From: an uncultured Traorella sp.
GTDB lineage: Bacteria; Bacillota_I; Bacilli_A; Erysipelotrichales; Erysipelotrichaceae
Reading direction: 5' to 3'
NCBI RefSeq assembly: GCF_944327115.1
Contig: NZ_CALVGS010000050.1
Coordinates: 1-39,767, forward strand
DNA length: 39,767 nucleotides
A program made the translations under genes and the position numbers. Positions 13,647 through 19,900 of the stretch are shown in pieces. A model generated the notes under the pieces. That model made no database searches. It worked only from the letters and a program-made list of their open reading frames with translations, and had not been told where the DNA came from. How positions within the stretch are numbered: position 1 is the first letter of the stretch; each line of letters opens with the position of its first letter.

Positions 13647-14732
13647 TTATTCAAGTGTAATCAGATAATATTCAGCCGGATGAATGTCATCCGTGATACA
13701 TGCGATTAATTGATGATCGCTGATCTTAAAGAAATATGCTAATTCCTGAAATGGAAGAAGAGTTTTAGTGATTAGAAAATCATTGATTTCAATGATACTA
13801 TAAGAATATTCATCATAACTGATCGATTCTTTGTTTAAGAAAGTATTATCACCAAGATAAATTTCAGCGTAAACTCTTTCACTTATATCAATATCATATT
13901 CTTTTTCATCATCAATCGTAATAATTTTGGTCAACATGCGTTCAGTTGTCTGTTTCTGAGTGATGATGTAGTCTTGAAGCGGTTGAAAAAAGTTTGTAGG
14001 TTCAATATAAAATGAAGATTGATTGCTTGTAACAACTTCAAAACCTTTCTGTCCGTATATTTTTTCATAAGTTACAAAGAATGGATGGGCTAAATGAAAA
14101 TTTTTTAGAAAAGCGAAATTGTAATTTTCTTGAATGATACCATCAATCGTATTTAATTGGAAGTGATCCCCATGAGTAATATCTGATAAGATATAAGGTC
14201 TTTCGATATATTGCTTATATTCTAAATAAATATGATCATTCTGGTGATAAAAATCATCATATGAATAAAAATCCATGACTTTTTTTACTTCATTTGCAGT
14301 TTCATAGTAAAGAATATAACGCTCATCTGTCTTATTAATATAATAAAGACCATCTTGTGTTTTGATATATTCAATGAGTTGTGGATGGGTTATCAGAAGG
14401 TTCTCGGCTTCTGTAAGCGAAAGAGAGGATAAATTAAATTCATAAAAATTTTTGAAATTTGTATAGGCGATATCAGAAGTATAATGTACATGATTTGCCT
14501 GAGTTGCTGTTAATGGGAGATGAGCATAGGAGTGGCTGATATAATCGATGTTCAAGGTATCTTCTGATTGCACGGAAAAAAGCAGATGATTGATCGTATT
14601 GTTGTTTAGTTGATTTAAAACATGCAGGGAAGTGATCGTATAGCCTGTTTCTTTTGTTTGGACTTCCCATTGATCCTGATGACAGCCTGTAAGTAATAAA
14701 ATGATTAAAATGATGGTATGATATTTTTTCAT
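13647..14732 (-). CDS. Lipoprotein of unknown function
   Basis: The product is 361 residues. It starts MKKYHTIILIILLLTGCHQ, a type II signal peptide with lipobox LLTGC, so the mature protein is anchored outside the membrane at Cys17. The frame extends 15 codons upstream, but AAAGGGGA lies directly before the ATG at 14732. The rest is rich in Tyr, Asp and aromatic residues with no motif I recognise. The gene is alone, with the orphan PadR operator just beyond its 3' end. No terminator is obvious before that operator. Confidence 0.75.
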   Translation of the reverse strand: MKKYHTIILIILLLTGCHQDQWEVQTKETGYTITSLHVLNQLNNNTINHLLFSVQSEDTLNIDYISHSYAHLPLTATQANHVHYTSDIAYTNFKNFYEFNLSSLSLTEAENLLITHPQLIEYIKTQDGLYYINKTDERYILYYETANEVKKVMDFYSYDDFYHQNDHIYLEYKQYIERPYILSDITHGDHFQLNTIDGIIQENYNFAFLKNFHLAHPFFVTYEKIYGQKGFEVVTSNQSSFYIEPTNFFQPLQDYIITQKQTTERMLTKIITIDDEKEYDIDISERVYAEIYLGDNTFLNKESISYDEYSYSIIEINDFLITKTLLPFQELAYFFKISDHQLIACITDDIHPAEYYLITLE

Positions 14733-14880
14733 ATGGTTCCCCTTTCCTGTATGACTATTACAATTATTGTATATCATATTGATTCATCATTTGCAATCAT
14801 TGTTTCGATAGAAGTTTAAATTAATATATTCATAGAAATCTTCTCTTATATTTAGTATAATAAATACCGAGGTGATTTTT

Positions 14881-17787: not shown

Positions 17788-17806
17788 ATTTACCCTCCTT
17801 TAAATG

Positions 17807-17845
17807 AAAAAGGCGCTAAAATACTCCCTCATATTTAGCGTCTTT
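17807..17845 (-). terminator. Intrinsic terminator or attenuator in the glnN leader
   Basis: On the minus strand, AAAG-A-CGCTAAATA, an eight-base loop, TATTTTAGCGCCTTTTT: a stem of about 14 pairs with one mismatch and one bulge, then a T-tract. It lies between the glnN promoter and its ribosome binding site, so it would stop transcription before glnN unless it is prevented from folding. It could also stop read-through from the upstream repressor gene. Confidence 0.7.
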
Positions 17846-17854
17846 GCATTTCAT
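17816..17854 (-). CDS. Putative 12-codon leader peptide, possibly leaderless
   Basis: An ATG lies six bases after the -10 TATAAT, so transcription would begin at or next to the initiation codon. The frame encodes MKCKDAKYEGVF and stops with TAG inside the right arm of the terminator hairpin. A ribosome translating it would sit on the hairpin and prevent it from folding. There is no Shine-Dalgarno. The peptide has no glutamine codons, so classical amino-acid starvation attenuation is not obvious. It may be chance. Confidence 0.35.
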   Translation of the reverse strand: MKCKDAKYEGVF

Positions 17855-17860
17855 ATGCGT

Positions 17861-17889
17861 ATTATAGAACTATGAAAAAACATTGTCAA
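17861..17889 (-). promoter_or_regulatory. Consensus promoter of glnN
   Basis: On the minus strand, TTGACA (17889-17884), 17-bp spacer, TATAAT (17866-17861). Both hexamers match the sigma-A consensus exactly. Confidence 0.9.
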
Positions 17890-17915: not shown

Positions 17916-18512
17916 TTAAAAGCGCACCTTATTATAAAGGACCCTGCCAATGATGCGAACCGGAAGCTCCTCAATATCCTTTTCATTAAAATAACGATTT
18001 TCAACATTAGGATTAGCAGCTTCCAAAATCAATAAATGATCTTTTTTGATAACACGTTTAACAGTAGCTTCATTATCACCGATCAATACGATCGCAATCT
18101 GTCCGCTTTCGACATCACTGCAAGATTTCACATATAATAAATCTCCGTCACAGATACGGGCATTGACCATCGAATCCCCGCTGACTCGAAGATAGAAATC
18201 CCCCTGCCTGCTTTCATCTTCGCTGACTTCCTCATACCCCATGATATTTTCTTCGGCATACATATCATAACCTGCTTTCACGATACCCAAGATCGGTTTC
18301 ATGGTGCTTACATTATCTTTTCCCAACAGATGATCCGGTGTCGTTTGAAGGATATCTGCCAGCTTTTGCAGCTTCTCAGGAGAAATACGTTTCGTATCTC
18401 CGGCTAGCCAGCGGCATACGCTGGGACGGGAAGCGCCTGTGGCCTCCATGATATCATCGATCTTTAATCTTAATTGTTTTTTTCTTTGTTTAATGATCTG
18501 ATTTTGCAGCAT
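17916..18512 (-). CDS. LexA/CI-like repressor (XRE HTH plus S24 peptidase)
   Basis: The 198-residue protein joins an XRE helix-turn-helix (about 10-62, with IMEATGASRPSVCRWLAGDTKRISPEKLQKLADIL) to a peptidase S24 domain (about 75-198). The S24 domain shows the self-cleavage site KAG near 79-80, the catalytic Ser in SGDSMVNARI and the catalytic Lys in EATVKRV. Such repressors cleave themselves when RecA is activated by DNA damage. It is divergent from a Y-family polymerase, with TGATA-type half-sites between them, so it probably controls that mutagenesis cassette. It is not canonical LexA, whose N-terminal domain is a winged helix. It could be a domesticated phage repressor. Confidence 0.9.
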   Translation of the reverse strand: MLQNQIIKQRKKQLRLKIDDIMEATGASRPSVCRWLAGDTKRISPEKLQKLADILQTTPDHLLGKDNVSTMKPILGIVKAGYDMYAEENIMGYEEVSEDESRQGDFYLRVSGDSMVNARICDGDLLYVKSCSDVESGQIAIVLIGDNEATVKRVIKKDHLLILEAANPNVENRYFNEKDIEELPVRIIGRVLYNKVRF

Positions 18513-18530
18513 TCTCTCACCTCATGTTTA

Positions 18531-18623
18531 TGATATCAAAAAAAAGCAAAAGATGCAATATGATAATTATCAAGTAAAATATTACCAGTTAAAAGATATC
18601 AAAATGTGTTGTAAAATGATATT
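18531..18623. promoter_or_regulatory. Repeated TGATA-type operator sites between repressor and polymerase genes
   Basis: TGATATCA at 18531-18538, the perfect palindrome TGATAATTATCA at 18561-18572, AGATATCA at 18594-18601 and TGATATT at 18617-18623. The first three centres are 32 and 31 bp apart, about three helical turns. A plausible polymerase promoter is TTGTAA (18609-18614), 17-bp spacer, AATAAT (18632-18637), which the last site would cover. Confidence 0.5.
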
Positions 18624-18655
18624 GGAAATGAAATAATGAAAGCGGAGGCGGGAAG

Positions 18656-19900
18656 ATGAAAGAAAGAGTAATTTTGCACTGTGATATCAATCATTGTTAT
18701 GCACAGATAGAGGAAATGATGGTGCCTGAGCTGCGTCATGTACCGATGGCCGTGGGCGGTAAGAGCGAAATGCGGCATGGAATCATCTTGGCAAAAAATG
18801 ATCCGGCAAAGAAGTATCGGATTCAGACAGGTGAATCAGTGCATGAAGCATATCAGAAATGTCAGGATCTGGTCATCATTCCTCCTCATTATGAAGAATA
18901 TCTTTATTATACGGAAAAGGTAAAGGATATCTATCGGGAATATAGTGAGTGGGTAGAGAGTTTTGGCTTGGATGAGGCATGGATCGACGTAAGTGACTGC
19001 CTGTCTTTATTTGGAAGCGGCTTAAATATCGCCCGGACGATTCAAAAAAGGGTATGGGAAGAGATCGGTCTAAGCATTTCGGTCGGTATCAGCTTCAATA
19101 AGATATTTGCCAAGCTTGGCAGTGATATGATCAAACCGATGGGATTGGTAGAAATCAGTCGTGATAATTTTAAGGAAAAGGCATGGCAGCTGCCTGTGGG
19201 CGATCTTTTATATGTTGGAAGAGCGACCTTAAAGAAGCTGGAAATCTTCGGTATTCATACGATCGGTGATCTGGCACGGTTTGATGTAGAAATATTGAAG
19301 CGGCATTTAGGTAAAATGGGAGAAATCATTTATTGGTTTGCCAATGGTTATGATCAAAGTGAGGTAGCACGTATAGATGCCTGTCAAGAAGTAAAATCAA
19401 TCGGTAATGGTATCACGACGCCCAAGGATATAAAAAATCTACGAGATGCCCAAAGTGTTTTCTATGTCCTTTGTGAGTCGGTAGCTTCACGTGCGAAGGA
19501 AAAAGGAATGGCAGGAAGATGTGTCAGCATCCAGCTGAGAAATACAGATCTGAAAAGCTTTTCCCGTCAGAAAACGCTGGTAAGAGCAACCAATTTAAGT
19601 GATGAACTGATGGAAATCGTGACAGAGCTAATAAAAAACAATTATGATTTTTCTATACCGTTAAGAAGTGTTAGTGTTTCTCTTTCACATTTATGCTTTG
19701 AAAGTGAAAAAGTACAATTTTCCTTATTTGAAGATGAAATGAGCCGTCAGAAACGATACTGCCTTGAAAAAACGATCGATCAGATTCGTTTACGATATGG
19801 CTTTGGAAGCGTGAAACGGTGCAGCATGCTGCTTGATGAAGAATTGAGTGATTTTGATCCTAAGGGCAGTCATATCATCTTTCCGGTAGGATATTTCTAA
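18656..19900 (+). CDS. Y-family DNA polymerase (Pol IV/UmuC-like)
   Basis: The 414-residue translesion polymerase copies damaged DNA at the cost of mutations. Catalytic carboxylates are visible in HCDINHCYAQIEE (residues 8-20) and FGLDEAWIDVSD near 103-114. The fingers/palm region has GIILAKNDPAKKYRI and SVGISFNKIFAKLGSDMIKP. A helix-hairpin-helix follows near 190-215 and a little-finger domain to about 360. QFSLFED near 361 fits the QxxLF beta-clamp-binding motif. A GGAGG site precedes the ATG. It is divergent from the S24 repressor, and the next ORF starts within its stop codon (TAATG). Damage-inducible expression is the likely control. Confidence 0.92.
   Translation: MKERVILHCDINHCYAQIEEMMVPELRHVPMAVGGKSEMRHGIILAKNDPAKKYRIQTGESVHEAYQKCQDLVIIPPHYEEYLYYTEKVKDIYREYSEWVESFGLDEAWIDVSDCLSLFGSGLNIARTIQKRVWEEIGLSISVGISFNKIFAKLGSDMIKPMGLVEISRDNFKEKAWQLPVGDLLYVGRATLKKLEIFGIHTIGDLARFDVEILKRHLGKMGEIIYWFANGYDQSEVARIDACQEVKSIGNGITTPKDIKNLRDAQSVFYVLCESVASRAKEKGMAGRCVSIQLRNTDLKSFSRQKTLVRATNLSDELMEIVTELIKNNYDFSIPLRSVSVSLSHLCFESEKVQFSLFEDEMSRQKRYCLEKTIDQIRLRYGFGSVKRCSMLLDEELSDFDPKGSHIIFPVGYF

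Follow-up and report, generated by a model that had tools for sequence, protein, structure and literature searches.

The window analysed here, a stretch of 39,767 nt from an uncultured Traorella sp., carries a glnN gene whose short leader packs together a perfect promoter, a 12-codon ORF opening at the predicted transcription start and a terminator hairpin (Table 1). This arrangement raises the question of what decides whether a transcript passes the hairpin and reaches glnN. The original prediction proposed that a ribosome translating the short ORF could play this role.

Table 1. Features of the glnN leader and the linked gene discussed in the text; positions are those of the window unless another locus is named.
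Feature	Position	Strand	Basis
-35 hexamer TTGACA	17884..17889	-	sequence; recurs in family leaders
-10 hexamer TATAAT, 17-nt spacer	17861..17866	-	sequence; promoter 12/12 sigma-70
Predicted transcription start, 7 nt past the -10 hexamer (A of ATG)	17854	-	promoter spacing
12-codon ORF MKCKDAKYEGVF + stop, probably incidental	17816..17854	-	kept only in sister species L010
ORF stop TAG, inside right arm of hairpin	17818-17816	-	sequence
ANTAR-type hexaloop hairpin GC-AAAGAC-GC (A1, G4), U-U flanking, overlapping terminator 5′ arm	17838..17847	-	sequence; family motif
Intrinsic terminator hairpin, mutually exclusive with hexaloop hairpin	17814..17840	-	folding; same-genus orthologues L010-L013
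Terminator arms	5′ arm ~17840-17831, 3′ arm ~17824-17814	-	sequence
U-tract TTTTT	17807..17811	-	sequence
glnN ribosome binding site AAGGAGGG	17793..17800	-	sequence
glnN, type III glutamine synthetase (GSIII), 696 aa	15697..17787, start 17787	-	Pfam GSIII_N 2e-81
Own GSI-like gene before ANTAR gene	L149:3155-4272 (G000:C122, ~23.15-24.27 kb)		

The glnN leader and its short ORF

The layout behind the original prediction was confirmed in the sequence throughout: TTGACA-17-TATAAT, an ATG after six bases, the ORF with its stop in the right arm of the hairpin, and five T ahead of the glnN ribosome binding site. Its view that the leader holds a regulated terminator, with the predicted transcription start at or near the ATG, was also judged to be right, the start by promoter spacing. 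Nine perfect promoters with this spacing were found in the 2.23 Mb genome, against none for the reversed control pattern. The terminator hairpin is moderately better than shuffled sequences (z = -1.4 over 68 nt, -2.2 over 57 nt) and is also seen in the leaders of relatives; a simple terminator scan missed it, presumably because a bulge breaks the stem. Rfam covariance models, riboswitch and T-box families included, gave no match at the gathering score in the window or at seven loci, and an Rfam riboswitch or T-box was therefore ruled out as the identity of the leader.

Control by a leader peptide would require the leaderless ORF to be translated from its 5′-terminal AUG, so that the ribosome blocks the terminator. 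The AUG sits exactly at the predicted start, the stop falls within the right arm, and the ORF of the sister species differs by a single replacement (E to D). However, the ORF was found only in the window species and this one sister species. It is missing from the same-genus leaders L011, L012, L013 and L017, from the ilvE and glnA-like leaders of the same genome and from most of 63 elements, where early AUGs open other frames with other stops, and it contains no run of regulatory codons. Across relatives the hairpin is thus retained and the ORF frame lost, which is the outcome that the original prediction had itself named as counting against it. Leader-peptide control was rejected on these grounds and is now very improbable.

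It is similarly improbable that the hairpin serves only to end transcription of the LexA-like gene upstream (17916-18512, minus strand), which is codirectional and ends ~26 nt before the -35 hexamer. The terminator follows a perfect promoter, L011 and L013 keep both although their upstream neighbours differ, and the same layout occurs at the ilvE, glnA-like-ANTAR and gdhA leaders. The LexA-like S24/HTH repressor gene and a gene for a Y-family DNA polymerase (IMS) are transcribed divergently (17916-19900) and look like a small SOS-type pair beside glnN. Elsewhere in the window, a 376-aa ORF (13647-14777, minus strand) gave no Pfam match.

A hexaloop hairpin in the leaders of nitrogen genes

GSIII upstream regions were compared across genomes of the same genus and family and 80 loci from public genomes. 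Many of them share the promoter and terminator; also recurrent is a hexaloop hairpin, C-AANGNN-G, placed right at the 5′ end of the RNA and within the 5′ arm of the terminator. Examples are GGC-AAAGGC-GCC, AGC-AAAGGC-GCU, CGGC-AAUGGC-GUCG and AAAC-AAAGGC-GUUU, and most relatives have a stem of at least 3 bp. An initial, loose search for A1/G4 hairpins, with a shuffle rate of 19%, gave way to a stricter scan (2%). The motif CAANGNNG (C-AANGNN-G) was found 9-22 nt past a strong promoter in 66 leaders of GSIII and other genes, against 0-5 for seven altered motifs. These 66 were picked by the motif near a promoter only, with pairing ignored. For the four pairs of the hexaloop stem (P1), 90% of cells can pair, compared with 77.5% when shuffled. 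Covariation of P1 is 0.476 against 0.259 in shuffled sets (reached in 0/500) and far above slid controls, and changes on both sides of the stem number 34 against 13.7. The third pair, for instance, alternates between G-C (27) and A-U (21).

A covariance model (R1) was built without the window and sister leaders. Its significant matches in the window's own genome were glnN (36.2 bits), ilvE (35.2) and the glnA-like-ANTAR operon (31.5). By comparison, C47, another site with a perfect promoter, scored 22.2 bits against 36.2 for the window. A fourth leader, AAAC-AAAGAC-GUUU with a terminator, precedes a GATase_2 (glutamate-synthase-like) gene (L262, G000:C41:26542-26593, E = 0.08). One further match, at C16:16494 (rubrerythrin-like start), lacks a terminator and was rejected. 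Relatives add the leaders of gdhA, amtB, purC and purF, and all of these, in this genome and in relatives, belong to nitrogen or glutamine genes. This names a nitrogen regulon (GSIII, GDH, AmtB, BCAT, purC/purF) for the family of the window and for Clostridia. In one related genome a second GSIII copy behind gdhA is split into two overlapping frames (L150:5270-7365, G002:C15), either by a frameshift or by an assembly error.

The single hexaloop and canonical ANTAR targets

Published ANTAR targets carry a hexaloop with A at position 1 and G at position 4, and AGCAANGRRGCUY is common to the eut leaders, where it overlaps the 5′ part of the terminator (PMC3369931). The window reads UGCAAAGACGCUA, which fits this consensus at 10/13 positions; its loop, AAAGAC, has the expected A and G (family AANGNN), its hairpin overlaps an intrinsic terminator with which it is mutually exclusive, and its genome encodes one ANTAR protein (G000:C122). 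The second hairpin of a canonical target, joined to the first by a short linker, was not found. In 59 leaders the predicted start is followed by the hexaloop stem at a distance of -1 to 10 nt, which leaves no room for the upstream hairpin of the dual motif. Downstream, 6/59 leaders have a second A1/G4 hexaloop on a stem of 3 bp or more, which is at chance level and not above other loop letters; the strongest candidates for a dual arrangement are L101 and L082. The candidate second hairpin of the window, AUG-AGGGAG-UAU, is closed by G-U and was treated as chance.

The structural study of EutV bound to RNA redefined the minimum needed for binding as a single hexaloop, yet it holds that preventing termination requires the dimer to contact each hexaloop (PMC8934654). 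The single-hexaloop leaders therefore represent either a natural exception to the EutV model or an extension of it. They resemble the EutV leaders of the Enterococcus faecalis eut operon in the A1/G4 hexaloop, the AGCAANGRRGCUY consensus, the overlap with the 5′ arm of the terminator and the ANTAR antiterminator (PMC3369931, PMC8934654). The eut leaders, however, have two hairpins, P1 and P2, both needed, whereas glnN-type leaders have one, a few nt from the start. The ANTAR receiver here also lacks the phospho-acceptor Asp, and the genes are those of glutamine and ammonia. Also similar are the ANTAR nitrogen regulons predicted for Desulfotomaculum and others (Ramesh 2012), in which genes for glutamine/glutamate synthesis and for ammonium transport have leaders with overlapping terminators. 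That work used the dual-hairpin model, and its accessible text describes neither single-hexaloop start-site leaders nor a GS-like partner (PMC3369931). The statement that no GSIII attenuator of this form had been described thus needs a qualifier, as ANTAR targets before glutamine/glutamate synthesis genes were already predicted in 2012. No matching account of the single-hexaloop type was found in the open literature searched, supplements and subscription papers lying outside that scope.

Judged by sequence, the glnN leader looks like a single-hexaloop variant of the ANTAR-type leader, a variant widespread before nitrogen genes. From the observed anatomy, conservation, covariation, co-occurrence and gene linkage we infer ANTAR binding, readthrough and their signal, and consider it fairly probable that the leader is an ANTAR-type transcription attenuator, still an active target in the window and read by the ANTAR protein encoded behind the GS-like gene. 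RNA polymerase would start at ~17854, and the first ~10-16 nt would fold into the small hexaloop hairpin (A1, G4). Left unheld, the loop and its 3′ side would pair onward into the terminator and transcription would stop at ~+47; the REC-like/ANTAR protein (G000:C122), by binding the hexaloop, would block the terminator and permit glnN transcription, probably under nitrogen shortage. An antiterminator protein was among the alternatives listed in the original prediction, and that part agrees with the ANTAR reading; its leader-peptide part is unsupported. The leader family also offers many natural single-hexaloop terminators of ~50 nt as easy material for in vitro tests.

The window copy is itself a weak example of the hairpin. 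Its stem, like that of the sister species, consists of two G-C pairs plus U-U, below the published minimum of 3 bp, and is worth -0.7 kcal/mol alone, compared with -1.9 for ilvE and -4.3 for the glnA-like leader. The same-genus glnN orthologues L011, L012 and L013 have lost the loop and kept promoter and terminator, and their terminator may work without ANTAR; the hexaloop is intact in L017, the second GSIII copy of G003. In G016, which has no ANTAR domain match, the terminator is kept with a degenerate loop. These cases suit the main rival explanation, namely that the glnN leader in this genus descends from an ANTAR target and has decayed into a constitutive attenuator lowering glnN transcription by a fixed factor. 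The comparison with the sister species argues against decay. The 83-nt leader differs at a single base, in the apical loop, and the hexaloop core GCAAAGACGC is unchanged, whereas fourfold sites of GSIII are 54% different; thus the leader, as it now stands, is strongly constrained. Moreover, both species keep an ANTAR gene. We regard decay as unlikely, and an active ANTAR target remains the preferred reading.

Co-occurrence with ANTAR genes and the linked GS-like gene

Among genomes of the same genus, each of four has exactly one ANTAR gene and the fifth, 79% complete, has none. Among family genomes whose GSIII upstream regions were inspected, the element was found there in 29/43 with an ANTAR gene and in 3/50 without (Fisher's test, 3e-10, uncorrected for relatedness); the latter three are 78%, 66% and 66% complete. 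Genome-wide matches to R1 (E<=0.01) occur in 33/46 genomes with and 6/150 without an ANTAR gene, four of the six being marginal, and these counts are lower bounds, since R1 searches score pre-selected candidates only. Alignment-based ANTAR matches in G004 and G016 cover the receiver half only and were discarded.

Outside the family, an ANTAR gene is present in 22/24 element-bearing genomes. The domain was not found in the genome of L047 or in the complete genome of Treponema ruminis (L102); the latter has tandem hexaloop leaders, and neither the Pfam model nor the A3 profile found an ANTAR domain. T. ruminis has either a divergent regulator or is a counterexample. These two genomes, together with the atypical receiver described below, would suit a different protein or a small molecule reading the hexaloop (GlnR, PII or an RNA ligand). 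The match to the ANTAR consensus, the co-occurrence and the gene linkage point away from such a reader, as do the zero Rfam matches, and we give it the slightest chance of the explanations considered. Tandem arrangements of two single-hexaloop + terminator modules, ~50-135 nt apart, were seen in clostridial and Treponema GSIII leaders (L047, L053, L054, L055, L071, L076, L079, L085, L102, L104 and L117).

The ANTAR protein of the window's genome (G000:C122) is predicted to consist of a receiver, a coiled coil and an ANTAR domain (pLDDT 92.6), and the nearest PDB structures to the model are EutV, Rv1626 and AmiR. The phospho-acceptor Asp of an EutV-type receiver is Met in this protein and Asp in 3/12 aligned relatives. 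At 39/44 loci the ANTAR gene lies directly behind a GSI-like gene, and the five loci without this neighbour belong to genomes where the hexaloop leader was not found; GSIII is the divergent neighbour in ~21 genomes. Two to four of ten canonical metal/substrate residues have been lost in 12/36 GSI-like proteins, that of the window's own genome included, and the tree calls for at least 3-4 independent losses. Missing from the own protein are R339, R344, E357 and R359 (enterobacterial GS numbering). Its gene is nonetheless under purifying selection in the genus (second codon positions 8.7% different, fourfold sites 51%), and the sister GS-like proteins share 78.4% identity. Besides GSIII and this active-site-degenerate GSI-like gene, no GS-family gene was found in the genome.

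A receiver without the phospho-acceptor Asp and a GS-like protein that has lost active-site residues, seen beside the analogous AmiC-AmiR and NasS-NasT pairs, lead us to infer that the linked GS-like protein may be a nitrogen sensor gating the ANTAR protein. It provides a concrete sensor candidate, often active-site-degenerate, for the nitrogen regulon. Tentatively, one start-site hexaloop could be enough for ANTAR antitermination, against the rule that both are needed, and the ANTAR protein could be gated by a linked GS homologue that acts as a non-catalytic sensor in several lineages; we hold this combined proposal with less assurance than the attenuator itself. AmiR, reportedly crystallised together with AmiC (1qo0), shares with the own ANTAR protein the A-H variant of the RNA-binding helix, and AmiR and NasT are likewise receiver-like ANTAR proteins. 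NasT is released by its cognate sensor (PMC3795266). Unlike in AmiR/AmiC and NasT/NasS, the candidate sensor here, with its putative gating role, would be a glutamine synthetase homologue. In Bacillus, GlnR and TnrA are controlled by feedback-inhibited glutamine synthetase, a case in which a GS protein serves as sensor for a nitrogen regulator, as is proposed for the candidate here. The Bacillus regulators, however, bind DNA and work with an active GS, whereas the present system pairs a putative RNA-binding ANTAR protein with a GS homologue that is often active-site-degenerate.
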